From a virus, in IMG/VR virus record IMGVR_UViG_3300009788_000208, positions 1 through 36,671 of that record: a stretch of 36,671 nt of DNA; one strand, 5' to 3'. The position numbers were made by a program, and so were the translations under genes. Of this stretch, positions 1,837 to 27,850 are shown piece by piece (the stretch's first letter is position 1; each line of letters starts with the position of its first letter). The notes under the pieces were generated by a model. That model was not told the DNA's origin and did no database searches. It was given only the letters and a program-made list of their open reading frames with translations.

Positions 1837-2633
1837 ACTGGTATGAGATCAAGGCAGCACACGAAGATACGGCCGAAGTTTGGATCTATGATGAGATCGG
1901 TGAGAGCTTTTGGGGTGAGGGCGTAAGCGCTAAGACGTTCAATAAAGAACTTAGTGAAATAACTGCGCCCAATATTGATTTACATATCCACAGTCCGGGT
2001 GGCATGTTCTTTGAGGGCCAAGCGATGCATGCAGCAATATCGCGCCACCCTGCGAAAGTCACGACCATTGTTGATGGCCTTGCCGCTTCGGCGGCGTCTC
2101 TTGTAGCCCTAGCCGGTGATGAGGTTGTCATGGCCGATGGTGCATACATGATGATTCATAACGCCTGGAGTCTTGCTATGGGCAATGCTTCTGATCTTCG
2201 AGATTCGGCAGACCTGTTAGATAAGATTGACCAGACACAGCAAAACACATATCAACGCAAGTCCGGTCAAGCCCTCTCAGCCATCCAAGACGCTATGGCA
2301 GAAGAGACTTGGTTCACCGCTTCAGAGGCGGTCGAGTTCGGCCTTGCAGACCGGGTTGAAGAGGGCTTGAAAGCAGCGGCGATGACAATTACGCCTGAGA
2401 TCGCGGCGCGGTTTAAGAATATGCCGAGAGGCTTGACGCCTGAGAAACCACACCAGATCGAGCCCGATGGTGAGATTCCAGACGATGCCAGGTATATCCA
2501 AGTTGTTGTGAACCAAACGCATCCAACACCGCCCGGCGCGGGCGAGACAAATAGCGATGGCGCATCGCAAAAAGAAGAAAACCAACCATACGATTTAGAG
2601 CTTGAACGCATAAAGCTCAGAAAGAAGGAATAA
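1833..2633 (+). CDS. ClpP-like prohead (head maturation) protease
   Basis: The 266-residue protein shows a ClpP/crotonase-fold serine protease domain in residues 1-185. The catalytic serine lies in GLAASAAS (about Ser86), the histidine in MMIHNAW (about His109), and a HSPGG turn sits near residue 55. In HK97-like phages this enzyme cleaves the scaffold or delta domain of the capsid protein during maturation. The tail after residue 190 is Pro- and charge-rich and may be a scaffold-like extension or a self-cleaved piece. It starts in the ATGA overlap with the portal gene, and its TAA overlaps the ATG of the capsid gene. Confidence 0.92.
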   Translation: MNWYEIKAAHEDTAEVWIYDEIGESFWGEGVSAKTFNKELSEITAPNIDLHIHSPGGMFFEGQAMHAAISRHPAKVTTIVDGLAASAASLVALAGDEVVMADGAYMMIHNAWSLAMGNASDLRDSADLLDKIDQTQQNTYQRKSGQALSAIQDAMAEETWFTASEAVEFGLADRVEEGLKAAAMTITPEIAARFKNMPRGLTPEKPHQIEPDGEIPDDARYIQVVVNQTHPTPPGAGETNSDGASQKEENQPYDLELERIKLRKKE

Positions 2634-3808
2634 TGTCACTTAGCTATCAAGCGATTTCTGATCAGATAATCGATCTAGAAACGCAACAGCGCGACATCGT
2701 TGTGGAAGGTGAAACGCCTAGCAACGAAGATCGCGACCAGATCAAAAAGCTTGAAGGGTCGCTTGACATCTTGAGAGCACAGAAAGACTTTGCCCACAAA
2801 GACGAGGTTGAAGCGGCCAAGAAAACCGTAACGCCTATCGTCGGCAACAAGGGCGAAGAGTTAGACTTTCGCACCATGGCAAAGGGAGACGAGTACGATA
2901 TTCAGTTCTTCCGTTCTGCCAAGCACAGAAAGACTCCCGAGAAACACATCAAGGAAGCGCGGGCGGCTTTGCAGTCAGATGCGACGCCTGGCTCTATCCT
3001 TGTTGATGAGGAGTGGAGCGCGGTTGTAGAGAAAGTCCGCTTCGAGCGGAACTTCATGAGGTCAGTCGGGGCCAAGGTCATCACGACCTCGACCACTCAC
3101 AACATCCCGGTACTGACCGCACTCGGTACGGCTGCAATCGTCGGAGAGAGAACGGCCTACACGACCGGGGATGTCACATGGGAAAACGTCGTGCTCAATG
3201 CCTACAAGCTGACTCACAAGACTCCGGTCTCCGAGGAACTTCTGGCTGATGCGGCTTACGATGTCGCTGGTGAACTTGCCGAGGCGATCGGTCTGACTCT
3301 GGCCGCGGGGGAAGAGCAGTTGTTCCTCACCGGCACAGGTTCAAGCGAGCCGACCGGTATCTTCAACAAGACGGCCGATAAGACTGTTGCAGCCGCGGCC
3401 GCCGTGACCAACGATGAGTTGATCGACATTGTGTACGGTCTGCCTCGTCACTACAGGCGCGAGGCCATTTGGGCTTTCAACGACTTAACTGTTGCTGAGA
3501 TCGCCAAGGCCAAGCTCACCGTGACGACTTCCGGTACGCTGCCTTCCTTCTGGAGCGATTCAGAACGCGGCGAGCCGTCCAGACTGTTGGGCTTTCCGGT
3601 TGAGACCAGTTCCAACATTGCCCAGCTTGGAACTGGCAATAAGTTTGTCTGTTTCTTCAATCCTCTCTTCTATCTGATCGGCGAACGTGGTCCGATCAAC
3701 GTGAAGAGGTTGCAGCTCGACGAGCATAGCGACACATTCGCATGGAACCAGCGCATCGATGGAAAGCCGCTGGATGAGAATGCGTTCTATGTCGCGAAAA
3801 ACAACTAG
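2633..3808 (+). CDS. Major capsid protein, HK97 fold
   Basis: The protein has 391 residues. Residues 1 to about 100 are charged and helical (LETQQRDIVV, KKLEGSLDIL), matching the scaffolding delta domain that the upstream protease would remove. The rest has the HK97 pattern: SILVDEEW at the start of the mature region, then HNIPVL, TPVSEELLADA, GEEQLFLTGTGSSEPTGI and a C-terminal SDTFAWNQRIDG. It builds the icosahedral shell. The start ATG overlaps the protease stop (TAATG). The stop is TAG at 3806-3808, and reading through it would add only ten residues. Confidence 0.95.
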   Translation: MSLSYQAISDQIIDLETQQRDIVVEGETPSNEDRDQIKKLEGSLDILRAQKDFAHKDEVEAAKKTVTPIVGNKGEELDFRTMAKGDEYDIQFFRSAKHRKTPEKHIKEARAALQSDATPGSILVDEEWSAVVEKVRFERNFMRSVGAKVITTSTTHNIPVLTALGTAAIVGERTAYTTGDVTWENVVLNAYKLTHKTPVSEELLADAAYDVAGELAEAIGLTLAAGEEQLFLTGTGSSEPTGIFNKTADKTVAAAAAVTNDELIDIVYGLPRHYRREAIWAFNDLTVAEIAKAKLTVTTSGTLPSFWSDSERGEPSRLLGFPVETSSNIAQLGTGNKFVCFFNPLFYLIGERGPINVKRLQLDEHSDTFAWNQRIDGKPLDENAFYVAKNN

Positions 3809-4111: not shown

Positions 4112-4870
4112 ATGCCCATAAACGAAGATCGCAAGTATGTCCTAGCCTTGGCTAACGCATCCGGTACCGCTGATCGTAATGGCGCGATTGTGGACATGAG
4201 CCAGATCGAAGAGATTGATATCGTTGTCAATGTCGGAGTCGTGGCGCCTGGAGCGGTGACACGCATCAGGGTCGACAGTGATTCCGATTCCGCAATGGCT
4301 TCTCCGCAAGAGATTGATGGAGCCAGCATGGATATCGAGGATGACGATGATGGACAAGTGTTCGTTATCCCGATTCAAAACCCGCCCGAGCGGTATGTCC
4401 GTTTGGTCGTTGACAAGGACGGGGCCAACGCTTGCGAGGAAAGCGCCAATTATGTGCTTGCCAAGTTTGGCCGGACGCCGCAAGAGTCAGCCGTGGCCAA
4501 CGTGATGAACATTGACACGATTCATCAATGGCCGTCAGTCGGTACAGGCGCAAGCGCGTCGCCGTCAGTGTCTGTGTCCTTGTCGCCGTCGCTCTCGGCC
4601 AGTTCGTCCGAGTCGAGATCGTCAAGCGCGTCAACTTCGCCGTCGTCGTCTGTCTCATTGTCGCCGTCAGCGAGTCCGAGTTCGTCTTCGAGTCCGAGTT
4701 CTAGTGCATCGGTTTCCGAGTCTCGAAGTGTCTCGCTCAGCCCGAGTGCTTCGGAGTCCAGATCGCCCTCGGTGTCAGAATCGAGATCGGTTTCGCTCTC
4801 ACCGAGCGCGTCAGATTCGCCGTCAGCGAGTCCGTCACTCTCACCGAGCGCGTCGCCTAGTCCATCTTAA
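4112..4870 (+). CDS. Putative head decoration or fibre protein with C-terminal Ser/Pro repeat
   Basis: Residues 1 to about 146 form a globular, beta-rich domain (KYVLALANASGTADRNGAIV, VFVIPI, RYVRLVV). The gene position right after the capsid genes suggests a decoration, fibre or similar surface protein. From residue 147 to the end at 252 the sequence is almost purely Ser, Pro, Ala, Val and Leu, with units such as SVSLSPS and SPSASES. Serine is encoded by all six codons, so the pattern is kept at the protein level and is not simple DNA slippage. Two other structural genes in this window carry the same kind of tract. The start has AGGAGG upstream, and a hairpin terminator follows the stop. Function is inferred from position only. 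Confidence 0.8.
   Translation: MPINEDRKYVLALANASGTADRNGAIVDMSQIEEIDIVVNVGVVAPGAVTRIRVDSDSDSAMASPQEIDGASMDIEDDDDGQVFVIPIQNPPERYVRLVVDKDGANACEESANYVLAKFGRTPQESAVANVMNIDTIHQWPSVGTGASASPSVSVSLSPSLSASSSESRSSSASTSPSSSVSLSPSASPSSSSSPSSSASVSESRSVSLSPSASESRSPSVSESRSVSLSPSASDSPSASPSLSPSASPSPS
4550..4867 (+). repeat. Ser/Pro/Ala/Val low-complexity repeat tract 1
   Basis: This tract encodes residues 147-252 of the decoration-like protein. The degenerate unit is S-x-S-(L/V)-S-P-S with inserted SESRS pieces. DNA units such as tcgccgtcagc recur but are not exact copies. It matches tracts at 11683-12165 and 14808-14930 in style and in unit sequence. Confidence 0.95.
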
Positions 4871-4889
4871 CGAAAATCAGATTGCATCT

Positions 4890-4924
4890 GGCCCCTCCGG
4901 GGGCCGGGTGTTGTCTTGTTTTGA
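4890..4924 (+). terminator. Likely intrinsic terminator or attenuating hairpin
   Basis: A six-base-pair GC-only stem, GGCCCC with GGGGCC, closes a TCCG loop at 4890-4905. A T-rich stretch with several T pairs and a TTTT at 4919-4922 follows. It lies between the first Ser/Pro-repeat gene and the next structural gene and would lower expression of the accessory block relative to the capsid. The T tract is interrupted by G, so termination may be partial. Confidence 0.55.
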
Positions 4925-4933
4925 GGAAGTGAA

Positions 4934-5845
4934 ATGGCAGATATAGATCAAGAAGCTCAGGCCCCAGATGGAACAGACTTTACCCGGACCCTTGAGGATT
5001 TAGGAGATGGTAGTCACGCGCCCGGACAAGTCCTTTACCTCAGAAAGACAGACGGAACATATGTCGAGGCCGCGGGCAATGCTGACGGCTCTCTGATCCT
5101 ATCTGACCGTGGCCACCAAGTAGCTTTAGGTAACGTCGCAGGGGAAAAAGCGTTTCATCTTGCAGGCAGGCGCGATGGTGGCTCAACAGCCAACCTGGAA
5201 GACCTGACCGAGACTGGCATGGACGTTTTGCCTAGACCGGCAGGGGCGACGATTGATCTTGTATTTGCCAGTGGTGATGATGATGTTGCGGGAAGTGGCG
5301 TTCAAGTCGTCGAGATTGAATACCTTGATATAAATGGAGACGAACAGCAACTGCAATGCAATAGCAACGGGGGGACTGTCGCAGATGTAGGCGGCGGTAC
5401 TATCTATGATGTACAGTGGATGCATGGACAACAGATTGGCGGTGGAGCTCTTGGCATAGCGGCTGGCAATATAACACTTCTGAATCAAGGAGATAACGCA
5501 ATTGTCTATGAACGAATAAACGCGGGTGGGAATCAATCTCTGACAGCCCGGTATAAGGTGCCAAGAGCAAAGAAAGGGCTAGTCACGGGATGGGATGCCA
5601 GCGCGATCACGAGGAAGGTTGACTTTAGACTGAGGGCAGATGTGGACAGATTCAGCCGCGCTTTGCAGACAGGCGTTTTCAATTTTCAAGCGGTAGAAGT
5701 TTTAGAGCAAGTGGCTAGCGGTTGGCTTCCGTTCGACCCGCCGCTTTTGATGCCCGCACTGTCAACTGTGAAAATATCCGCGATCAGTTTCGCCGGAGCA
5801 GGTGATGGCGGCGGGAATTTCTCTATCACCTTGATCGACGATTAA
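4934..5845 (+). CDS. Putative virion structural protein, unknown
   Basis: The product has 303 residues. It is Gly- and Asp-rich with many short beta-like segments (DGTYVEAAGNADGSLIL, GATIDLVFASGDDD, FNFQAVEVLEQV), the style of phage surface or fibre proteins. No signal peptide or membrane segment is visible. A RBS (GAGGAAGTGAA) precedes the ATG. It sits between the first Ser/Pro-repeat protein and the glycosyltransferase genes. I do not recognise a family, so the structural call rests on composition and neighbourhood. Confidence 0.65.
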   Translation: MADIDQEAQAPDGTDFTRTLEDLGDGSHAPGQVLYLRKTDGTYVEAAGNADGSLILSDRGHQVALGNVAGEKAFHLAGRRDGGSTANLEDLTETGMDVLPRPAGATIDLVFASGDDDVAGSGVQVVEIEYLDINGDEQQLQCNSNGGTVADVGGGTIYDVQWMHGQQIGGGALGIAAGNITLLNQGDNAIVYERINAGGNQSLTARYKVPRAKKGLVTGWDASAITRKVDFRLRADVDRFSRALQTGVFNFQAVEVLEQVASGWLPFDPPLLMPALSTVKISAISFAGAGDGGGNFSITLIDD

Positions 5846-5868
5846 CCAACAACCCTGGAGAGGAAAAG

Positions 5869-6660
5869 ATGATAACCACAAGCGTAATTATTCCAGCTCG
5901 TAATGAGCAATACCTAGAACGGACAATCGATTCACTTCTAAACAATGCCCGAGGCGAGATAGAGGTTCTGGTCGTCCTTGATGGCTACTGGCCTCACATA
6001 ACGATAGACGATAAGCGGGTCAAGTACATCCACAAAGGCAAGGCAGAGGGGATGCGCCCGGCCATCAATTCAGCCGCCGCCATCGCTCAAGGCGAATACT
6101 TATTGAAGACCGACGCGCATTGTCTATTCGATCAGGGCTATGATGTTAAACTGGCCGCTGACATGAAGGACAACTGGATAGTTGTACCGAGGCGCCACCG
6201 GCTCGACGCTGAGAATTGGTGCATTGATAACGGAGGCCGTGAACCTGTCGACTATATGTACCTCTCGTCGGATCTTCACGGCAAGATATGGAACCGACCC
6301 GACCTGGCAGACAAAATGATAGATGATCTCATGTCGGCTCAAGGCTCTTGCTACTTTATAAAGCGCGACTATTTCTATGAGCTAGAGCTGCTTGACGATG
6401 TGAGCTATGGCAACTTCTGGTCTGAGTTCCAAGAGGTGGGCTTGAAGTGCTGGCTATCTGGTGGGGCCGTCAAGGTCAACAAGAGAACCTATTATGCCCA
6501 TCTTCACAAGAAAGATCGCGGCTATGCTATGGGGGGCTCGCAGAAACAGATAGCATCCGCCCAGGTCGAGAAATGGAGAGAGTTCAAGGCGGCATGGCCC
6601 AAGCAGACTCTACCGCTTGAGTCGTTGATTCAGAAGTTTGGGCCGGTGCCGACATGGTAG
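5869..6660 (+). CDS. GT2-family glycosyltransferase
   Basis: The 263-residue protein opens with TSVIIPARNEQYLERTI, the nucleotide-sugar-binding start of GT-A fold family 2 enzymes, then VLVVLDG. A DxD-like metal site reads TDAH at about residues 81-84. The middle and C-terminal parts have AQGSCYFIKRDYF and FQEVGLKCWLSGG, as expected for an acceptor-side region. Such enzymes move a sugar from a nucleotide-sugar to an acceptor. It lacks membrane segments, so it should be cytoplasmic. It is paralogous to the N-terminal half of the interrupted protein at 9028-10776 (shared PARNE, VVLDG, DAHC and KTWLSGG-type motifs). RBS GGAGAGGAAAAG. Its substrate is unknown; virion proteins are a reasonable guess from context. 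Confidence 0.85.
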   Translation: MITTSVIIPARNEQYLERTIDSLLNNARGEIEVLVVLDGYWPHITIDDKRVKYIHKGKAEGMRPAINSAAAIAQGEYLLKTDAHCLFDQGYDVKLAADMKDNWIVVPRRHRLDAENWCIDNGGREPVDYMYLSSDLHGKIWNRPDLADKMIDDLMSAQGSCYFIKRDYFYELELLDDVSYGNFWSEFQEVGLKCWLSGGAVKVNKRTYYAHLHKKDRGYAMGGSQKQIASAQVEKWREFKAAWPKQTLPLESLIQKFGPVPTW

Positions 6661-6905
6661 ACAAAAAGATAATAAAAGAAGATATGGGCGACATGGGGAT
6701 GTTGGAAAAGCCGCCCTATGACTGGATACCGAACGCAGAGATTAAAGAGATTTCAGACACGAACGACAAAAAGATGCAAGAGATAATGTCCGGTCAGCCC
6801 GCGGAAGACGGTGTATATGTTGAGGTAGATATTGATCATCATACATTGCAGGTTTTGTTAGAAGAAATAATCATGCTACGACGCGGCGATGTGTCTTATG
6901 GCTGA
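6654..6905 (+). CDS. Small hypothetical protein
   Basis: This gene encodes 83 residues, charged and without Cys or membrane segments. It overlaps the end of the glycosyltransferase gene by seven bases (ATG inside GACATGGTAG), so it is probably translationally coupled. The N-terminal half is Lys/Asp/Met-rich; the C-terminal half (VYVEVDIDHHTLQVLLEEI) looks like a strand followed by a helix. I recognise no family. Confidence 0.6.
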   Translation: MVDKKIIKEDMGDMGMLEKPPYDWIPNAEIKEISDTNDKKMQEIMSGQPAEDGVYVEVDIDHHTLQVLLEEIIMLRRGDVSYG

Positions 6906-7080
6906 CCCAATCTGCGAGTATCGAGCAACGCCACACGATAGCCCAAGCATCAGCATATACGCAGATGATGGCTCTGGAGTGAAGTCTGGAGATTGGCGAC
7001 AAGATCACGTTTGCGGTAAGGGTTTGTTTGATAGCATTTCTTCCTGGTGCTATGGGTGTCCAGACATGGAGAAGAAATGA
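6898..7080 (+). CDS. Small Cys-containing hypothetical protein
   Basis: The 60-residue product has four Cys (in PICEY, HVCGKG, and SWCYGC), which could bind a metal. An in-frame ATG nine bases earlier (6889) would add three residues, and no clear ribosome binding site separates the two options; I use 6898. It overlaps the preceding gene and ends in an ATGA overlap with the glycosyltransferase-like gene at 7077. Another Cys-rich small gene also stands right before the second glycosyltransferase gene (8816-9034). Confidence 0.55.
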   Translation: MADPICEYRATPHDSPSISIYADDGSGVKSGDWRQDHVCGKGLFDSISSWCYGCPDMEKK

Positions 7081-7787
7081 ATGACCTCACGGCCGTCTTC
7101 TACACCTCCAATTTCATGACCGGTCACTTCATTGAAAAGGTCAAAGAGCATACCTTGAAAGTTATCGGAGACTGTCCTCTGATCTCCGTGTCACAAAAGG
7201 AGATGGACTTCGGAGAAAACATCTGCATCGGTGACGTTGGCCGCTCACACCTGAACATCTACCGGCAAATCTTGATCGGGGCGAAAGCCGCAAAGACCAA
7301 ATACATAGCACTAATCGAAGATGACATACTCTACCATCCGTCGCACTTTATAGAGAAGCGGCCTAGCCCCGGTCATTTCCTCTACGACATGAACAAGTGG
7401 AGCATATTCACCTGGACTGATCCGCCCATGTTTTCACTTCGCAGGCGCAAGGTCGTCAATCATGTCATCTCAGAGACGTCATTGATGATCGAAGCCATGG
7501 AAGAGCGATTCGACCGGTATGACTGCCTGGACTTTGGAACCGATGACAGAGTCCCGAAGCTTGGTTATTGGGGCGACCCTGGCCGGTATGAACAGTATCT
7601 TGATGTGACAGTCAGGCCCACAGAAGAGTTCTACGCCACCGCGCCCGGTATCGTCTTCACCCATCCAGAAGCATACGGTTTCACCTCCAGGGGCAAGCGC
7701 AAGGCCCTGGCCAACGAGAAGTCAGATTGGTTGCCCGATTGGGGTACGGCTGATGAGGTCATGAGGGAGTATTATCATGGCAGATGA
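7077..7787 (+). CDS. Glycosyltransferase-like protein (second family)
   Basis: I chose ATG 7077 because it has GGAGAAGAA upstream and forms an ATGA overlap with the preceding stop. That leaves 236 residues. The key segment is KYIALIEDDILYHPSHF, with an acidic EDD triad that resembles the metal site of GT-A enzymes. The same segment, as FCEHDVLYHPSHF, is found in the C-terminal half of the protein at 9028-10776, so these are paralogous domains. A C-terminal FTHPEAYGFTSRGKRK follows. A sugar-transfer role is inferred from the motif and the adjacent GT2 gene. Confidence 0.7.
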   Translation: MNDLTAVFYTSNFMTGHFIEKVKEHTLKVIGDCPLISVSQKEMDFGENICIGDVGRSHLNIYRQILIGAKAAKTKYIALIEDDILYHPSHFIEKRPSPGHFLYDMNKWSIFTWTDPPMFSLRRRKVVNHVISETSLMIEAMEERFDRYDCLDFGTDDRVPKLGYWGDPGRYEQYLDVTVRPTEEFYATAPGIVFTHPEAYGFTSRGKRKALANEKSDWLPDWGTADEVMREYYHGR

Positions 7788-8268
7788 AGCAGGCACCCAC
7801 CTAGCCATTCTATTGAAATGCTTTGAGCTTGGTGACGGCCCTATCCTCGAAATGGGGACTGGACAATTCAGCACCCCGATACTTGACATGATGTGCAAGC
7901 GGCGTCAAAAGAGGTGGATACTATCGCTTGAGAATGACCCGGAATGGTACGCGATAAATAAGGCCAAATACGAGAGCGACTACCACAAGTTTATGTTTGT
8001 CCAGGATTGGGATGCCCCCCCGATAATGGAAACTCATTGGGGCCTAGTCCTGATAGACCATAAGCCCGCGTTAAGGCGCAAGACAGATATAGTGAGGCTC
8101 AAGCATCGGGCTCATTACATCTTGTGCCACGACTCAGAGCCAGAGATTGAACGGTTTTATCGGTGTGACCGGGCATATCCACACTTTAAATATCGGTATG
8201 ACTATGAAGAATGCGAACCGTTCACGACAGTATTGAGTAATTTTTCTAACCTTGGAGAGTTGAGATGA
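7777..8268 (+). CDS. SAM-dependent methyltransferase-like protein
   Basis: The 163-residue protein contains ILEMGTGQFSTP near residues 24-35, matching the glycine-rich SAM-binding motif I of class I methyltransferases. The segment LSLENDPEW fits motif II with an acidic residue after the second strand, and LVLIDHKP could be the end of strand four. It overlaps the preceding gene by 11 bases and the next by four. With the neighbouring methyltransferase-like gene it may modify a sugar or protein made by the glycosyltransferases. The substrate cannot be read from sequence. Confidence 0.65.
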   Translation: MADEAGTHLAILLKCFELGDGPILEMGTGQFSTPILDMMCKRRQKRWILSLENDPEWYAINKAKYESDYHKFMFVQDWDAPPIMETHWGLVLIDHKPALRRKTDIVRLKHRAHYILCHDSEPEIERFYRCDRAYPHFKYRYDYEECEPFTTVLSNFSNLGELR

Positions 8269-8819
8269 TGGAATTAAATAACCGATTCGACCTGGCTAAG
8301 TTTTTCCATGCCAGAGGCTACAAAGTAGGCGCCGAAATAGGAACGGCGGCTGGACAATATGCCGAGGCCCTTTGTGAACGCATCCCAAAAGTTGAGCTGT
8401 ATTGCATAGACCCCTGGAAGAAATACAAGGGGAACAGGCGCGGCGGGTCACACGACCATCAAGTCAACAACCATGCGGCGGCGGTCAACCGGCTCAGGCA
8501 CTACCGGACACACCTCATTCAGTTAATGAGCGTTGATGCTTTACCGCTATTTGCAGAAGAGTCCTTAGACTTTGTCTTCATCGACGGCCATCACGACTAT
8601 GAATATGTCAGAGACGATATTAGAGACTGGTCATACAAGGTTCGTAAGGGTGGGATAGTCGCAGGCCATGACTATTATGAGTTCGACAATTCAGGTGTCA
8701 TTCAGGCAGTTGATGAGTATGCCCAGGCCAAGGGGATAGAGCTTAACATCATACCCGAAGACCCGAGCCAGGGGCGTAAGGATAATCGGTATCCTTGTTT
8801 TTGGTGGGTGAAGTCGTGA
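8265..8819 (+). CDS. Class I SAM-dependent methyltransferase (methyltransferase-24 style)
   Basis: The protein has 184 residues. The segment VGAEIGTAAGQYAEAL (about residues 23-38) is motif I, ELYCIDPW is motif II, and LDFVFIDGHHDYEYVRDDI is the FIDG-type block typical of the methyltransferase-24 group, often found in glycan-modifying O-methyltransferases. GGIVAGHDYYEF follows as the next conserved strand. RBS GGAGAG precedes the tandem ATGATG start. The position between glycosyltransferases suggests methylation of a glycan, which is inference. Confidence 0.8.
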   Translation: MMELNNRFDLAKFFHARGYKVGAEIGTAAGQYAEALCERIPKVELYCIDPWKKYKGNRRGGSHDHQVNNHAAAVNRLRHYRTHLIQLMSVDALPLFAEESLDFVFIDGHHDYEYVRDDIRDWSYKVRKGGIVAGHDYYEFDNSGVIQAVDEYAQAKGIELNIIPEDPSQGRKDNRYPCFWWVKS

Positions 8820-9034
8820 CCGAGAATAGGGCCATTCCCCAACTTTGCAGGTCTAAAAACCTCTGCATGTGGTGCAGTGAGTATTCAGTTGAAACACTTA
8901 GCCGTGGTGACGAGGGGTGTTGTGCCCCATGTCCGGTAAGATTCGGAGACTTTGAATGTCGAGACGCTAGCTGCAAATGGGTCGATGCTTTTTGCCCCAA
9001 TCCACCAGTGCCAGAGTGGGTGAGGTCATGCTAG
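8816..9034 (+). CDS. Small Cys-rich protein
   Basis: I place the start at GTG 8816, overlapping the previous TGA as GTGA. The 72-residue product has ten Cys, among them CRSKNLCMWC, CCAPC, CRDASC and a final Cys. It has no membrane segment or signal peptide. It could bind zinc or be a structural cysteine-knot-like module. The stop TAG (9032-9034) lies inside the start of the next gene. I recognise no family. Confidence 0.6.
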   Translation: MTENRAIPQLCRSKNLCMWCSEYSVETLSRGDEGCCAPCPVRFGDFECRDASCKWVDAFCPNPPVPEWVRSC

Positions 9035-10776
9035 ACCTATCTGTCCTCATACCGGCCAGAAATGAAGAGTTTCTAGACCGCACAATCAAGTCAGTCCTCG
9101 AAGCATCCGAGGCAGACACGGAAGTTATAGTCGTCCTAGATGGACAGGGGTCGGTGACACCTCTAGAGCAGCATCCATAGGTGAAAGTTGTCTATCTGCC
9201 AGAGTCGATCGGGCAGAGGGCGGCTACAAACCTGGCAGCCAAACTCTCAACGGCCAAGTACATCATGAAGCTCGACGCTCATTGCATACTTGGCCAGGGC
9301 TTTGACCGGATATTGATAGAGGCCCACGAACCTGGAATGACACAGATTCCCAGACTCTATAACCTCCACGCATTCAACTGGAAATGCAAAGAGTGTGGAG
9401 ATGAGACATACCAAGCCCCGATGCCTACCGAGTGCATCAAGCCCGACATGGATAAGATATCCGATGCTTTCAAGCAGGGTGTGGACAAGATCAAGGGGGT
9501 TTCATATAACAGGGGTAATCCATCAACAGGGGTCGAGGCCAAGAAAGACATTCCGAAAGAGTACCGGGCAAACTGCCCGAGCACTGACTTTGAACGAGTA
9601 ATTGTCTGGGCGCCGCGTGACGGCAAGGCAGTACCCGAGAAGAGAGTCAGCGACTTCTAGCGGTTCGATCATACCCTCCACTTTCAGTATTGGAGAGAAT
9701 ACGGGAAACGAGCCGAGGGCCAAGGTGATATCTGTGACGTCTTCGGAAACCTGGGCGCGTGTTGGTTCATGGAGCGCGAGCGCTATTGGGAGATTGACGG
9801 CCTAGATGAAGATCATGGCTCATGGGGTCAGATGGGAGTCGAGATATCATGCAAGACTTGGCTCTCCGGAGGGCGCCAGGTAGTCAACAAGAAAACCTGG
9901 TTTTCCCATCTGTTCAGGACTCAGGGCGGCACGTTTGGGTTCCCTTATCCGCAAAGCGCCAAAGGGGTCGATGAGGCCCGGAAGCATTCCCGCGAGTTGT
10001 GGATGAATAACACCTGGGATAAGCAGGTGCATCGTTTGCCTTGGCTGCTTGAGAGGTTCCATCCCCCGGATTGGCCGAGCAAAAGCATTCTTTACTATAC
10101 CGATTCCAAGCTTGATGTTCGGATAGCCAACGTGGTCCGGGGTCAGATCAACAAGGCCGAATTACCTATCAGAAGCGTGTCTCTTGAGCCCTTGAATTGG
10201 GGCAACAATATCAGTCTGGATATGCGGCCTGGTGCCTTGACGATGTTCAAGCAGATACTAGCGGGCCTTGAAGCCAGCACAGCCGACATTATATTCTTTT
10301 GTGAGCACGATGTTTTGTACCATCCGTCTCACTTTGACTTTATTCCGGAGCGGGAAGATGTCTATTATTACAATCTGAACATCTGGAAAGTAGATGCCAC
10401 CGGTGAACACAGGCCGCTGCATTACGATTGCAAGCAGACCTCTGGGTTATGTGCCTATCGAGAGTTCTTGATTACCCATTACAAGGAACGGATCAGGCGA
10501 GTCGAGGCAGATAGGTACTACAACTGGATGGGTTTTGAGCCCGGTACTCATAATCGCGACGATAAGGAAGATGGACGACTCGGACGGGTCGACAAGTTCG
10601 GATCTGAAACCTGGCGATCACAGACACCGAATATAGACATCAGGCATAGGCAGAATCTGACCAACACTCGATGGGATAAGAGTCAGTTTCGCAACGCCAT
10701 CTCTTGTCGGAATTGGGAGAGAGCAGATCAGGTTCCGGGCTGGCCTGATATCAAGGAGATTATCCGTGGTTATTAA
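9028..10776 (+). CDS. Fused two-domain glycosyltransferase interrupted by two in-frame TAG codons
   Basis: From ATG 9028 one frame runs for 582 codons to TAA 10774-10776, broken only by TAG at 9178-9180 (codon 51) and at 9658-9660 (codon 211). Residues 1 to about 330 are GT2-like: LSVLIPARNEEFLDRTI, VIVVLDG, then after the first TAG VKVVYLPES and KLDAHC, and after the second TAG RFDHTLHFQYW and CKTWLSGG. Residues 350-582 match the second glycosyltransferase-like family of the gene at 7077 (FCEHDVLYHPSHF). Homology is continuous across both TAGs, no frameshift is needed, and neither downstream piece has a good ribosome binding site (GTG 9181, ATG 9769). Thus it is either read through, for example by amber suppression, or it is a decaying gene. 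Confidence 0.75.
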
Positions 10777-11095
10777 ATATCCGGTCACGAGCAACACAAA
10801 CGAAGAAAAGAGGGAATTTCTTTATCGATCCAGGGAAAAACTAAGGCTTGAGCATAACGAAAAAGGAAGACAGTTTCGCGAGGAAGAAATCTCAGAATCA
10901 CAATGGTTGGCTTATAAGGCCACGTTCTCTCCAAAAAATATGGCGTTATCTGAGGCCATCGCTCCGCTGCAACATGAGAAAGTTTTGTCGAATGGCGGAT
11001 ACGACCGATTGAACACTAACTTTAGTTTCAAAGAGCAATACAAAAAGAGCACCAAACACGACTCAGTGATTAACCTTGGAGATTTGGTGAAGTAG
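10766..11095 (+). CDS. Hypothetical charged protein
   Basis: The start is GTG 10766 with AAGGAG eight bases upstream, overlapping the end of the fused glycosyltransferase by 11 bases. The product has 109 residues, rich in Lys, Glu and Arg, mostly helical in appearance, with no Cys and no membrane segments. Its TAG (11093-11095) overlaps the GTG start of the next gene. I recognise no family; coupling places it with the accessory late block. Confidence 0.65.
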
Positions 11096-12255
11096 TGGCA
11101 ACGGAAGACCTAACTACTTATACGGAAACCGACCCTAACGGGCGGCTCACTGTCACAACAGACAGGGTAACTGCCGCCAACCTTAGCCGACAAGAAGACG
11201 CATCTTTACGTGATGACAAGGGCGCTAGTCACTTTAATGCCTTAGATATTCTCGTAACAATGAACCAAGCCTCATCTAGTACCGATAACGGTTTTATGTT
11301 GATTGGTCAGTCAGGTGCTATCGAGGGCGATCTGACAGAGTTCACATCAACTGACTGGGCACTCGGCATCGTTGAAATCGGTACGGGCGATAAGACGTTT
11401 CATTTAACCAGAGGAAGCTTTGTCGCCAGCGATAACTTCGCAACCGCAGCCACACCTATCACCTGGTTTCCAAATGTTTTAAGAACGGCAGCAAGCGATA
11501 CAATTACCGCTGAGCTTTATTCAGATTCAATCAGAACAACCCTAGAAGACACATTAAGCGTTTCGGGCTACGGCGGCGCTACTAGATGGCGTTATATGTA
11601 TGCGGCGCTTAGCATGAATGATGGAACCGGCAGCGCTATGTTTGATGGCTTCTTCGAAGACATTGATTTGCAAGAAGTGGGCAGTGCTTCGCCGTCACTC
11701 AGCCCGAGCGCATCAATAAGCGCAAGTCCCTCAGCATCAGTATCATTATCGCCCTCGGTTTCCGAGTCCAGGTCGCCATCGAGTTCAGCTTCGGCCAGTG
11801 AGTCGAGATCAGTAAGCTTGTCTCCAAGCGCCTCAGAAAGTAGAAGCCCGAGCTCAAGTCAGTCGCCGTCATCCAGCGAATCAGTCAGTGAGAGCAGATC
11901 AATCTCATTGTCGCCGTCGTCTAGTGAATCAAGAAGTCCGAGCGCGAGCCAAAGCCCGTCAAGCTCAGAATCAAGATCAGTCAGTTTGTCGCCCTCAGCC
12001 AGCGAGAGTAGAAGTTCGTCGGCCAGCCCATCGGCCAGTATTTCACAAAGCCTGTCTGTGTCGGTCAGTTTATCGCCGTCAGCATCAGAGAGTCCGAGCG
12101 CGTCAGTGTCAGCGTCGCCCTCGGTCAGCGTTTCATTATCGCCAAGTGCCAGCCCATCGGCCAGCTTCCCGGCGCTTAGGGGCGATCTGGAGGCTTCGAG
12201 TATTACAGGTTCGATGACAGCAAGTAGCATAAAAGGTTCAATGGAGGTCACATAA
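11095..12255 (+). CDS. Putative virion structural protein with long Ser/Pro repeat
   Basis: The 386-residue product begins at GTG 11095. Residues 1-196 form a globular domain with many beta-like segments ([37 protein letters not shown]) that resembles a carbohydrate-binding or lectin-like fold in texture only. Residues 197-357 are Ser/Pro/Ala/Glu/Arg repeats ([13 protein letters not shown]). Unlike the other two repeat proteins, a short ordered end follows ([16 protein letters not shown]). It is followed by the head-tail connector with a TAATG overlap, so it is expressed with neck genes. Role inferred: an exposed virion appendage or a glycosylation target. Confidence 0.75.
11683..12165 (+). 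repeat. Ser/Pro/Ala/Val low-complexity repeat tract 2
   Basis: This is the longest of the three tracts, about 161 codons. Units such as [17 protein letters not shown] repeat imperfectly. All six Ser codons are mixed within each unit. It codes an internal segment, since about 29 ordinary residues follow before the stop. Confidence 0.95.
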
Positions 12256-13184
12256 TGGCAGCTAGTTTTCCATATAAGACAACAGGACAGCTCACCTATA
12301 CCTGCAAGAACGCGGCAGATGTGGCTGTCGAGCCTGATACGATTTCAGTCACAGTTGCCAAGCCTGACGGTACTGATCTGTTTGGGCCAAAGACTCCGAG
12401 TGCAGGTGTGGGCACAGGTGAACGCACTCAAGAGATAACGAACACCGAGGCGGACACAATCGGCAAGTGGTCGGCTGTCTGGACATGGACGAAAGATGGA
12501 TCTACGACCAAGGACATTGAACCATTCTGGATTGATGGAGTTGTTGAGCCTGTCAATGCGGTCGGCCTTTGCACCTTGGAACAGGTCCAGAGTCTTCCGA
12601 ATATCACCACGACAGATGATGACACGCTAATAGCGGAGTTGATTCTGGCCGCGACCCGAGTCATATGCAACAGATATGAGCGAGAGTTCGTTCCGCAAGT
12701 CGCCTCCACGGTCAGGACGTTTAAGGTTCAAAAACGATTTATCAGTCTCGCGCCTTTTGATTTGAGGTCAGCGGATACGGTCAAGATGCACCCGGAAGAA
12801 AGCTCGCCAACGACTCTGACAGCGGGCACCGATTAGAACTTGCAACCAGTGGACGGCAACCCATTAACTGGAACGTTCTTAGACATTCAACTGGGCGCCA
12901 ATGTCAGTCTGGTATCTACGCTCAGCAACAACTTCGGATATGTACAGATTGAGATCACCGGGAATTGGGGAATCTGGTCGACCGAATCAGATGTGCCGGA
13001 AGATGTTAGGCAGGCCGCGATCACCACTGTCTTGTCATGGCTTGATAGGCCATCCGCTGAAATATCGGCCATTAACGCCATTGGTGAGGCCGGACGTTTA
13101 CCCTCAAGCGGCGGCACCTGGGAGATACCCTTTTCATCTCATATGATATTACAGCGGTATGCGCGACTGAATTGGATTAGCTAA
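12255..13184 (+). CDS. Head-tail connector protein with one in-frame TAG codon
   Basis: The frame from ATG 12255 to TAA 13182-13184 has 309 codons and one internal TAG at 12834-12836 (codon 194). Residues 1-95 look like an Ig-like beta domain (TISVTVAKPDGT, GKWSAVWTWTK). Residues 105-309 resemble gp6-type head-tail connectors: CTLEQVQSLPNI, an LILAATRVICNRYER helix, then TLTAGTD, the TAG, and NLQPVDGNPLTG, followed by DVPEDVRQAAITTVLSW. The connector fold spans the TAG, because the beta segment before it and the strands after it form one domain. There is no ribosome binding site before the TTG at 12840. A connector is essential for joining head and tail, so loss by truncation is unlikely in a viable phage. 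Confidence 0.8.
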
Positions 13185-13645
13185 TGTCAGTTTCTACTAT
13201 TCGAGACATGAAAGCAGACCTCAAGACTCGGTTTGATGCAGATGACGATCTATCGGGTGTTCAGATCACGCGAGGCAATCCATATCCGACAAGGACACAA
13301 GAAGAACAGGTAATCATCGGCCCCGTGACACAGCAAGAGCTACCGGCCGGCCTTGGGAATAACGGAATCGAAGAAACCTATGACATAGACATTATTGTCA
13401 GCATTCAAAGATCGTCAAGGGAATCATACGAGACCCTTGAGGATAGAGCTTTTGTCATAGCCGGTCATATCGAGGAAAGCATGATCGATTGGCGGAGCGA
13501 GTCTCCGGTTTTCAACGGTCTAGAGGGCTGGATACAAGTCTCTGCCATAACTACAAATGAAGCTTTGATCACGAATGAGGCAGGGCAGGTGACAGAAAGA
13601 GAAGCCTTTGTAACCATAACTTTCAGTGTAGTCGCTAGAAAATAG
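13184..13645 (+). CDS. Neck or tail-completion protein
   Basis: The 153-residue protein starts in a TAATG overlap with the connector. It has an N-terminal helix (TIRDMKADLKTRF), then alternating beta segments (EETYDIDIIVSIQR, EAFVTITFSVVARK), and an Arg/Asp-rich middle. Size, fold texture and place between connector and tail tube match tail-terminator or neck proteins of siphophages. It ends with TAG at 13643-13645. The next small gene lies in the same frame but has its own strong GGGAGG site, so this TAG is a true stop. Confidence 0.65.
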   Translation: MSVSTIRDMKADLKTRFDADDDLSGVQITRGNPYPTRTQEEQVIIGPVTQQELPAGLGNNGIEETYDIDIIVSIQRSSRESYETLEDRAFVIAGHIEESMIDWRSESPVFNGLEGWIQVSAITTNEALITNEAGQVTEREAFVTITFSVVARK

Positions 13646-13654
13646 GGAGGATTT

Positions 13655-13813
13655 ATGAAGATCAAATACATCGGAACTGACATAGCGGTCAACGTCTACC
13701 CAGAGACTGGCGGTCAGATTCTGTGCAAACGAAATGTCGCGACCAAAGTGCCTGATTCATTGGGCAAAAGATTGTTGGAACAGAAAACTAATTGGAAGAA
13801 AGTAGGTAAGTAG
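13655..13813 (+). CDS. Small neck-region protein, 52 residues
   Basis: A 52-codon gene starts at ATG 13655 with GGGAGG seven bases upstream and ends at TAG 13811-13813. The product is basic and strand-rich at the start (MKIKYIGTDIAVNVYP) with a Lys-rich helix at the end (SLGKRLLEQKTNWKKVG). Similar short proteins, with the VPDSLGKRLLEQ-like end, are often seen beside the tail tube gene in phages. I do not know the function. Confidence 0.7.
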   Translation: MKIKYIGTDIAVNVYPETGGQILCKRNVATKVPDSLGKRLLEQKTNWKKVGK

Positions 13814-13814
13814 C

Positions 13815-14933
13815 ATGGCAATACCAGGAGGATTATCAGCACAGTTGGGAATAGCTCTGGAGACGGCTTACGGCACGTTCGCAACGCCTACCAAGTTTGT
13901 CGAGTTCGACTCCGATTCAATGGCGCTTGAGGAAGAGCGGATTGAGAGCGAGGGTCTTGGCCTATCCGATAGCGTTCTTCACGAAGACAACTGGAAACCC
14001 GGACAAAGACAAGGGCTCGGATCTATCCCGATGGACGTTAAGACGAACGGCTTTAACATCATATGGGAGCAGATATTTGGGGCTTCTGATGCCGTGACTC
14101 CGGGTGGCGCCACGAACACCATCGACACAAGTCACACCTTCGCAGACCTAACTGGCACATATGCGACCTGGCAGCTAGGCAAACCCGACACAGGCGGAGT
14201 TGTCAGACCGTTTTCATATCTTGGCTGCAAGGTCATGGAATGGGAACTGTCTAACAACATCAACGAGTTTTTAAAGCTCAATGTGACTCTCGATGCCAAT
14301 GACGAAGTCACAACCGAGGCATTGGCCGCCAAGAGCTACGCTTCCGGAGCGATGGCCCTGCCATTCTCAGGAGCTGTGATCACTGCCAACGGCAATACCT
14401 TTGTCATTCGCTCCATAACGATCAGCGGCAACAATGGACTTGAGGCCGACCGATTTGGCATAGGTTCGGCGACGAAAAGTGAACCCCTGAGAGAAGCCAG
14501 GCAAGAGGTCACAGTTGAGATGGAAGTCGAGTTTAAGGATTTGGTCGCCTATAATCTGTTTAAGAATGGAACGATGGGTGAGATCGTCGCCAGGTGGCAG
14601 TCTGGAACTGCCATCGAGGGGTCGTTCTTCCCTTATGTCAGAGTGACGATGCCGAAATGTCGTTATGACAGCCCGACCACGCCACCGGTTGAGGGACCGG
14701 GCAGACTTTTTCAGATCATCAATGCCAAGGTGTTGAAACCCAGGGATGGAAGCGAGCCTATCACGTTGGTCTATCGGTCCACTGATGGGGATACATTCCC
14801 GTCGAGGAGTCCATCAGCATCGCCGTCTGTCTCTGTGTCTCTGTCGCCGTCAGCGTCCGTGTCGCTGTCCGAATCAGCGTCGCCTAGCGTTTCTGTCTCA
14901 CTGAGTCCGTCAGCGTCGCCTAGCCCCTCATAG
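13815..14933 (+). CDS. Major tail tube protein with C-terminal Ser/Pro repeat
   Basis: The 372-residue protein starts one base after the previous stop. Residues 1-330 have the order seen in siphophage tail tube proteins: an opening AIPGGLSAQLGIALETAYGTF, then FVEFDSDSM, GFNIIWEQIFG, WELSNNINEFLKLNVTL and QEVTVEMEVEF. These rings stack to make the tail tube. Residues 332-372 are a Ser/Pro/Ala/Val tract ([13 protein letters not shown]) like those in two other virion proteins. If the tract is exposed, each ring would carry six of them along the whole tail. Confidence 0.85.
   Translation: MAIPGGLSAQLGIALETAYGTFATPTKFVEFDSDSMALEEERIESEGLGLSDSVLHEDNWKPGQRQGLGSIPMDVKTNGFNIIWEQIFGASDAVTPGGATNTIDTSHTFADLTGTYATWQLGKPDTGGVVRPFSYLGCKVMEWELSNNINEFLKLNVTLDANDEVTTEALAAKSYASGAMALPFSGAVITANGNTFVIRSITISGNNGLEADRFGIGSATKSEPLREARQEVTVEMEVEFKDLVAYNLFKNGTMGEIVARWQSGTAIEGSFFPYVRVTMPKCRYDSPTTPPVEGPGRLFQIINAKVLKPRDGSEPITLVYRSTDGDTFPSRSPSASPSVSVSLSPSASVSLSESASPSVSVSLSPSASPSPS
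14808..14930 (+). repeat. Ser/Pro/Ala/Val low-complexity repeat tract 3
   Basis: About 41 codons at the very end of the tail tube gene, again as [15 protein letters not shown]-like units. The strand DNA near tctgtgtctctgtcgccgtc is very close to tract 1, hinting at common origin or exchange. Confidence 0.93.
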
Positions 14934-23943: not shown

Positions 23944-24831
23944 ATGAACAAAGAAGCAAAGCAGTTATTGAGGTGGGGTGTCTACTTGTTGGTGGCGTTC
24001 CTTTGTGGTTGGTGGTTCTTCAACTCATCGAATATGCCCATTAGCCATCAGGGGCTTGTCTACACAGGCGGGCCGCTCGATGGAAACACCTACGTCCGAA
24101 CGCTCAAGCCAGGGGTCAAGCGCACACTGATAGCGCGTCATCCGCTCGACTGGCTGAACAAGTCGTATCGGTATCCGGTGACTCAGCGCGATTACATCAT
24201 ATCGTCAAGAGCAAATGAGGGCGACGTAAAAGGCAAGGACGCGATCAGCTATCCGTCAAAAGATTCCGTGATGATGACGTTCAATATTGCGCTCTATTTT
24301 GACCCGAACTGGAATGCTGAGGTAAAGGGCTATCGCGGCAACATGCAACAGAAGTTTCACGAACGAATCGGCGTCAAATACCGGGCATGGACAGATGACG
24401 GATGGCGGGCGATGTTGGCCGCGAAGTTCGGCAAACAGATCGAGAACGCTTTGCAAAAGCAGGCCGCGAACTATACGGCTGAGCAAATCTACACAACCGC
24501 AAAGTTTCAGATAGAGAAAGACATTGCCAAGGACATCGAGGAGCACATGGAAAAGGTGCTTGGCGATAACTACTTTACTCACTTTCGACTCAAGATCACA
24601 CGGGCTGAGCCGCCGAACAAGGTTAAAGAGGCATATAACAAGAAACGCGCTGCTGAAATCGGCATTGAGGAACAAAAAGCATTGGTTGAGCAGGCCAACG
24701 AGCAAGCTAAAGCAGCCGCGAAACTCGACCAGGCCGGGATAAATTACGCCATCCTCAAGGCAATCGAAAAAGATAAGGTGCAAGTGATAGTTGTGCCGAG
24801 CGGTAGCCCTGTCGCGGTGCCCGTTAGATAA
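23944..24831 (+). CDS. Band 7/SPFH (prohibitin-like) membrane protein
   Basis: The 295-residue protein has an N-terminal membrane segment (WGVYLLVAFLCGWWFF, about residues 11-26) followed by an SPFH-type domain: RTLKPGVKRTLIAR, VTQRDYIISSR, VMMTFNIALYFD (residues 100-120). A long helix follows (VKEAYNKKRAAEIGIEEQKALVEQANEQAKAAAKL) with the NKKRAAEIG pattern typical of prohibitin coiled coils. In bacteria such proteins organise membrane microdomains or control the FtsH protease. A phage copy might protect, sequester or retune FtsH-like proteolysis. RBS GAGAGGAGCAG. Confidence 0.82.
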   Translation: MNKEAKQLLRWGVYLLVAFLCGWWFFNSSNMPISHQGLVYTGGPLDGNTYVRTLKPGVKRTLIARHPLDWLNKSYRYPVTQRDYIISSRANEGDVKGKDAISYPSKDSVMMTFNIALYFDPNWNAEVKGYRGNMQQKFHERIGVKYRAWTDDGWRAMLAAKFGKQIENALQKQAANYTAEQIYTTAKFQIEKDIAKDIEEHMEKVLGDNYFTHFRLKITRAEPPNKVKEAYNKKRAAEIGIEEQKALVEQANEQAKAAAKLDQAGINYAILKAIEKDKVQVIVVPSGSPVAVPVR

Positions 24832-27148: not shown

Positions 27149-27850
27149 GTGAAGCCCTATTACCAAGATGAGGCGGTGACACTATACCACGGCGATTGCT
27201 TAGAGATCATGCCTCAGCTCGAGGCCGAAGTGGATCTGCTCTTAACTGACCCCCCTTATGGCGGACGGCTATCGGTTGATTATGCGGAGCGATTCAGCCA
27301 CAAAGCGGGGGAGTGGTGGCAAAATGCTGACCGGAGCACGAACCCTAGACATGAGCCGATTGTCGGTGATGACGAACCTTTTGACCCGACCCCTCTGCTC
27401 GGGCTGCCCGCTAAAGTTAAGGTGCTCTGGGGGGCAAATTGGTACGCAAGCCGTCTGCCTGATCGTGGCGGCTGGTGGGTTTGGGATAAACGATGCGGTC
27501 GGCGCGATGTATCTGCAGGCGGCTGGCCTATGTCTGAGGCTGAGTTGGCCTGGACGACGATCGGCAAGGGTGTCCGGGTTTTCAGGCATACATGGTTCGG
27601 CCTGATACGAGATAGCGAGCGCGGCGAACATTGGCACCCGACACAAAAACCAGTTGCCTTGATGCAGTGGGCGATCGACAAATCAAAGACGACCGGATTG
27701 ATTCTCGACCCCTACGCTGGATCTGGCCCGACCCTACGAGCAGCCAAGAATTTAGGCCGCAAAGCCATCGGTATCGAGATCGAAGAAAAGTATTGCGAGA
27801 TAGCCGCCGATCGATGTCGGCAAGGTGTCCTCGACTTGGGGGCTCAATGA
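27149..27850 (+). CDS. DNA methyltransferase, DPPY type (beta-like order)
   Basis: The 233-residue enzyme starts at GTG 27149 with AAGAGGGGG upstream. Catalytic motif IV is DPPY at residues 34-37 (LLTDPPYGG), and the SAM motif I, LILDPYAGSG (about 184-193), comes later, the order seen in beta-group amino methyltransferases (adenine-N6 or cytosine-N4). The EHWHPTQKPVALMQWAI segment is the typical motif before it. In phages such solitary enzymes protect DNA from host restriction or serve regulation. No cognate restriction enzyme is adjacent. Confidence 0.9.
   Translation: MKPYYQDEAVTLYHGDCLEIMPQLEAEVDLLLTDPPYGGRLSVDYAERFSHKAGEWWQNADRSTNPRHEPIVGDDEPFDPTPLLGLPAKVKVLWGANWYASRLPDRGGWWVWDKRCGRRDVSAGGWPMSEAELAWTTIGKGVRVFRHTWFGLIRDSERGEHWHPTQKPVALMQWAIDKSKTTGLILDPYAGSGPTLRAAKNLGRKAIGIEIEEKYCEIAADRCRQGVLDLGAQ

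Follow-up and report, generated by a model that had tools for sequence, protein, structure and literature searches.

A probable O-glycosylation system in uncultured phages: serine-repeat virion proteins beside a GalNAc-transferase-like enzyme

The DNA analysed here, called the window, is a 36.7-kb (36,671 nt) IMG/VR virus record from an uncultured phage (IMGVR_UViG_3300009788_000208), in which the genes for portal, ClpP-type protease, HK97 capsid protein, connector, tail tube, tape measure and M23 peptidase follow one another in this order. A glycosyltransferase (GT) cassette lies inside the late structural operon, and three proteins around it carry tracts in which serine alternates with other residues, written (SX)n (Table 1). 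The same phage also encodes a protein with an SPFH/Band 7 (stomatin-like) domain (positions 23944-24831; PF01145, E=2e-12).

Table 1. Features of the cassette and its structural neighbours in the window.
Feature	Position	Strand	Basis
Major capsid protein, HK97 type (context)	2633..3808	+	PF05065, E=1.6e-45; phrog_10
Small virion-type protein, encoded immediately downstream of the capsid gene; C-terminal (SX)n tract	4112..4870	+	N-domain phrog_5707
(SX)n tract 1, predicted O-glycan acceptor	4535-4867	+	In-phase Ser 54/56
GT2a, GT-A glycosyltransferase, predicted initiating enzyme	5869..6660	+	PF00535, E=2e-17
GTb, second glycosyltransferase family, E-D-D motif, predicted extender	7077..7787	+	AlphaFold2/Foldseek
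Class-I methyltransferase-like protein	7777..8268	+	Motif only; L002 holds an 82% identical homologue in the same position
Methyltransferase, Methyltransf_24	8265..8819	+	PF13578, E=3.6e-17
GT2 + GTb fusion, cut by TAG at 9178 and 9658	9028..10776	+	Both domains by profile
Modular (SX)n protein, short conserved tail beyond the tract	11095..12255	+	L002 counterpart
(SX)n tract 2	11674-12174	+	In-phase Ser 81/83
Head-tail connector, in-frame TAG at 12834 (context)	12255..13184	+	PF05135
Tail tube protein (Phage_tube_2), C-terminal (SX)n tract	13815..14933	+	PF18906, E=4.6e-25
(SX)n tract 3	14793-14930	+	In-phase Ser 22/23

All three tracts reported in a first-pass annotation of this DNA were refound, with the boundaries listed in Table 1. 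Serine occupies 157 of the 162 in-phase positions in the three tracts together, and the counts of Table 1 were never attained when these residues were shuffled 20,000 times. The serine codons are drawn from both codon boxes (TCN/AGY: 45/15, 51/36 and 18/4 in tracts 1, 2 and 3, respectively), which no single synonymous change can interconvert, and the tracts are therefore not one slipped DNA repeat. Tract 1 is under purifying selection, as the codons that differ between the window and the related locus L003 are synonymous in 35 cases and non-synonymous in 3 (dN/dS about 0.07). Taken together, the mixed codon boxes and this excess of silent changes argue for selection on the amino-acid pattern and not for DNA slippage. 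Across 139 tract proteins, the serine phase is 91% Ser, AGY codons account for 34%, and Thr is nearly missing, at 2.4% of the non-Ser-phase positions. Tracts were defined by 30-residue windows in which Ser fills no fewer than 12 of the 15 in-phase positions, stretches of at least 36 residues being flagged; these thresholds were chosen after the window had been seen, and the analysis is exploratory.

The proteins that carry the tracts are diverse. Pfam bore out the earlier identification of the 13815 product as a tail tube protein. The 4112 gene comes behind the HK97-type capsid gene, and this position is the ground for regarding its product as a putative decoration protein; the sole match of its N-domain is phrog_5707, of unknown function (E=3e-4). 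In the 11095 protein, described before as unknown, no known domain was found either. Its counterpart in L002, a relative about 80-90% identical to the window, has the same tract and C-terminal tail behind an unrelated N-domain, LamG (PF13385), the exchanged region spanning positions 11095-11673 of the window and 6632-7351 of L002. This pair suggests that different heads can be swapped onto a shared stalk. The 139 tract proteins fall into at least 49 N-domain clusters that have no detectable similarity to each other, and the presence of tracts on about 49 such dissimilar clusters argues for many separate attachments of the tract. Among the carrier N-domains, some could be assigned to tail tube, tail-sheath stabiliser, sheath or minor tail proteins, others to LamG or F5/8-type lectin domains. 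With 40 members, the largest cluster comprises a small protein encoded mostly less than 50 bp from GT2a; it comes after a capsid-type ORF in the loci inspected by eye, is unrelated to the 4112 N-domain, and its fold gave no significant match in the PDB, only weak phage fibre-like ones. A richer form of the window layout was seen in L028 (6677-13964), where four tract proteins, GT2a, GTb and the fusion enzyme share one 14-kb stretch.

GT2a had already been read as a GT2 enzyme, with which Pfam agrees. In a single-sequence search its best PDB matches were polypeptide GalNAc-transferases (E=2e-6), and a 17-member profile of the family (A1) matched these structures with E=4.2e-19, the alignment covering positions 3-259 of 282; bacterial or ordinary GT2 structures align with A1 mostly over the N-terminal half. 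Residues D82, H84 and H211 of GT2a are each conserved in 151 of 152 domains and align with the D-x-H motif and the distal histidine of the GalNAc-transferases, which are metal ligands in GT27. GT2a is related to polypeptide GalNAc-transferases, which in animals initiate mucin glycans. As the nearest solved relatives are protein O-GalNAc-transferases, a protein acceptor is supported independently of gene position.

GTb gave only sub-threshold Pfam matches (GT25 and GT2) and no convincing sequence match in the PDB. Its AlphaFold2 model (pLDDT 90) was assigned by Foldseek to GT-A-like structures, with probability 1.0 to both SpsA and WrtF and modest TM-scores of about 0.47. According to this model GTb folds as a GT-A glycosyltransferase, in agreement with the earlier proposal of a second-family glycosyltransferase-like protein. 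Of two methyltransferases proposed alongside it, the 8265 product was confirmed by its Methyltransf_24 match and possibly serves glycan O-methylation, its homologue in L008 also matching TylF sugar O-methyltransferase weakly. The 7777 ORF has no Pfam match, and what speaks for it is a motif of class-I type and the fact that it recurs in further cassettes. Related cassettes additionally hold sugar genes, namely a DegT aminotransferase, an RmlD/epimerase and a hexapeptide acyltransferase.

Both domains of the fused glycosyltransferase were recovered by profile as claimed; the first-pass annotation had missed, however, that the gene is not intact. In-frame TAG codons lie at 9178-9180 and 9658-9660 of the fusion gene and at 12834-12836 of the connector gene, and both are otherwise intact late genes. 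In L002, where the fusion is intact (4134-5849), the codons corresponding to positions 9178, 9658 and 12834 are AGG (R), TGG (W) and TAC. Because two TAGs break the gene, the fusion glycosyltransferase step may be lost in the window genome; an ORF starting from the ATG at 9769 retains the entire GTb domain. Wholesale recoding of TAG was rejected as a simple answer, given that TAG terminates 7 of the 40 window genes and that no tRNA was found. Sequence error, decay or TAG read-through may account for the three codons.

The first-pass annotation would, on its own terms, have been refuted had tract and glycosyltransferases failed to occur together across relatives; instead, the two are linked in both directions. 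A GT2a profile scan of IMG/VR returned at least 580 relatives; in the best 80 of these loci, a tract protein was present in 73 (7 had none) and GTb in 63. With near-duplicates removed, the median gap between GT2a and the nearest tract gene was 39 bp, and a tract gene lay within 100 bp of GT2a in 49 of 72 loci, compared with 14.6% of other ORFs. The reverse test used two DNA-pattern scans for the tract, blind to the enzymes, and yielded 13 records whose (SX)n tracts are long and mixed. PF00535 was found in 9 of these 13, in all nine cases as the GT2a family and mostly with GTb alongside, whereas among 72 control records with a pattern hit and no tract PF00535 occurred in 5 and the GT2a family in none. 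The resulting Fisher p=1.7e-9 (9/13 versus 0/72) serves as a guide only, because related phages are non-independent samples. In choosing the 13 records, ORFs that were short and repeats consisting purely of (SP)n or (SG)n were set aside by eye; four borderline loci of this sort (L150, L168, L181 and L197) stood outside the search, and the count becomes 9/17 if all four are scored negative. Three of the four tract records without GT2a are on short contigs (10-17 kb). The tract and these two enzyme families therefore co-occur well beyond chance, in both directions and in a family-specific manner. Recurrence of the pairing in many uncultured phages that are unrelated to one another makes it likely that the particle wears a genetically encoded sugar coat.

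We propose that the window, with good probability, encodes an O-glycosylation system for virion proteins that is mobile and would resemble in its working the glycosylation of bacterial serine-rich repeat proteins (SRRPs), with other initiating enzymes; the SRRPs, O-glycosylated on Ser in their alternating domains, provide a precedent for such an acceptor. The co-occurrence and the GalNAc-transferase-like enzyme family both favour the phage-encoded glycosylation suggested by the first-pass annotation. In the infected cell, GT2a, as an enzyme of the polypeptide GalNAc-transferase type, would add the first sugar to serines of the alternating tracts. Its extension would fall to GTb, joined by the GT2-GTb fusion in genomes where that gene is intact, and capping of the glycan may be the task of the Methyltransf_24 enzyme. 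With tracts hanging from the tail tube, the capsid-proximal protein and the modular adhesin-like protein, particles would bear many glycosylated bristles or stalks, which might act in shielding, in stalk extension or in mimicry of a host surface glycoprotein. We infer catalysis, order of action, sugar identity, surface display and biological role of the cassette from the observations above.

It is improbable that the glycosyltransferases instead alter the host surface by O-antigen or capsule conversion against superinfection, with the tracts as plain disordered spacers that are neighbours by chance. Phage GtrB-type GT2 enzymes do act in this way and two A1 members weakly match a GtrB-like PHROG, but the cassette sits among late structural genes, in most cases no more than about 40 bp away from a tract gene, and no flippase-like partner was noticed. 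The link is moreover specific to the GT2a family, none of the five control records with other GT2 genes having it, and the solved enzymes nearest to GT2a act on protein. Somewhat less credible again is selection of the tracts as unmodified, flexible, hydrophilic stalks for which serine alternation alone suffices. Ser/Pro/Ala tracts are indeed expected to be soluble and disordered, and modular adhesin-like proteins are among the many carriers; such stalks would nevertheless leave unexplained the near-obligate link with two glycosyltransferase families, the scarcity of Thr and the strictness of the serine phase. Glycosylation of hypermodified phage DNA, with a separate mechanical role for the tracts, is very unlikely: many phage glycosyltransferases target DNA and the Pfam scan found an N6/N4 DNA methylase at 27149, yet the scans of the main window ORFs gave no thymidylate-synthase-like or hydroxymethylating gene, the glycosyltransferases co-occur with tracts, and the closest GT2a structures are protein-modifying.

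O-glycosylation of the tracts thus remains our preferred reading, and its components are not confined to viruses. Megablast and tblastn found no GT relative in 50,697 phage records, which presumably include mycobacteriophages, or in 72,556 plasmids; the sole match in these searches was the tail tube, with 24-30% identity to Streptomyces phages. The literature search likewise turned up no paper pairing phage serine-repeat tracts with these enzymes. In cellular genomes, scanned with the query profile A4, the GT family appeared mainly in Patescibacteria assemblies; a scan with the GTb sequence gave no match. The complete Woesebacteria chromosome L323 (CP066693, 1-16228) holds the cassette and giant tract ORFs near tatC and comM, and the 744-kb contig L324 holds them near tatC. 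Since their neighbours are cellular, these two cassettes are cellular islands, and their presence on Patescibacteria chromosomes means that the system is not exclusively a virion one. In L323, L324, L321 and L316, all from Patescibacteria, the GT2a/GTb/methyltransferase cassette was accompanied by (SX)n ORFs reaching about 1,600 aa in length, possibly host surface glycoproteins. A small genome contains L317, a contig of phage type on which a Mu-type portal, capsid protein E and a tail tube flank the cassette. The family is rare in cellular genomes: it was present in 4 of 287 genomes sampled from the Patescibacteria-side phylum (two already known), in 2 of 294 from the phylum of G110 (one of them known before) and in 0 of 300 from that of G112, a search run without a positive control. 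The window capsid protein had one weak match (30%) in the same 287 genomes. In a quick tree the glycosyltransferases form two paralogue clades with cellular rows interspersed among viral ones. Given these mixed rows and the same cassette on chromosomes, exchange between phages and Patescibacteria, in either direction, is likely. We consider more tentatively, as a possibility still short of an even chance, that a mucin-like O-glycoprotein system is swapped between Patescibacteria and phages, the phage wearing its host's serine-tract coat as stalk, shield or mimic, and that swapped lectin domains on the stalks tune adhesion.

If the proposed glycosylation holds, a common class of uncultured phages would decorate its own particles by means of GalNAc-transferase-like enzymes and serine-repeat acceptors, a combination absent from the cultured phage records and literature searched. 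It would offer an acceptor-enzyme pair for prokaryotic protein O-glycosylation together with a set of compact candidate protein O-glycosyltransferases, would likely explain many serine-repeat proteins in viral metagenomes, and would give a lead on phage-host interaction in Patescibacteria.

Among known systems, SRRPs (Fap1, GspB and the L. reuteri SRRP) have Ser alternating with Ala, Val, Thr and others and are O-glycosylated on Ser inside the cell, and their Gtf clusters link glycosyltransferases that include a fused two-domain enzyme, dGT1 (PMC6973325, PMC5207161). The window proteins have the long alternating-Ser repeat domain by which SRRPs are defined (PMC6973325), and the window system, as known from its genes, shares the linked cluster with a fused two-domain glycosyltransferase. 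It differs in that the carriers are phage virion proteins, that X in the window tracts is Pro-rich and Thr-poor, and that the likely initiator is GT-A/GalNAc-T-like in place of the Gtf1-Gtf2 complex. Pfam scans of the larger window ORFs gave no accessory Sec component (SecA2/SecY2), and no Glycos_transf_1 or Gtf match indicative of a GtfA/GtfB-type initiating complex turned up in the window, whose glycosyltransferases are GT2/GalNAc-T-like and GTb. Because both were sought and not found, we do not class the system with the SRRPs. GT27 enzymes are the best full-length profile matches of GT2a, which keeps the D-x-H motif and the distal His; GT2a differs in being prokaryotic or viral, of low identity and only about 260 aa long. 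Ending about 50 aa past the catalytic domain, it gave no match to a ricin-type lectin domain, for which this length leaves no room. In mycobacteriophages, capsid and tail-tube subunits are glycosylated at their C-termini, according to the passages of PMC12619734 that cite Freeman et al. 2023. The window places its predicted acceptors similarly, on a capsid-proximal protein and at the tail tube C-terminus. Its glycosyltransferases, in contrast, have no detectable homologue in the 50,697 phage records, and alternating-Ser tracts of the window type occur on many carrier types. What the window has in common with phage-encoded virion glycosylation is the linkage of glycosyltransferase genes to predicted acceptor domains on virion proteins.
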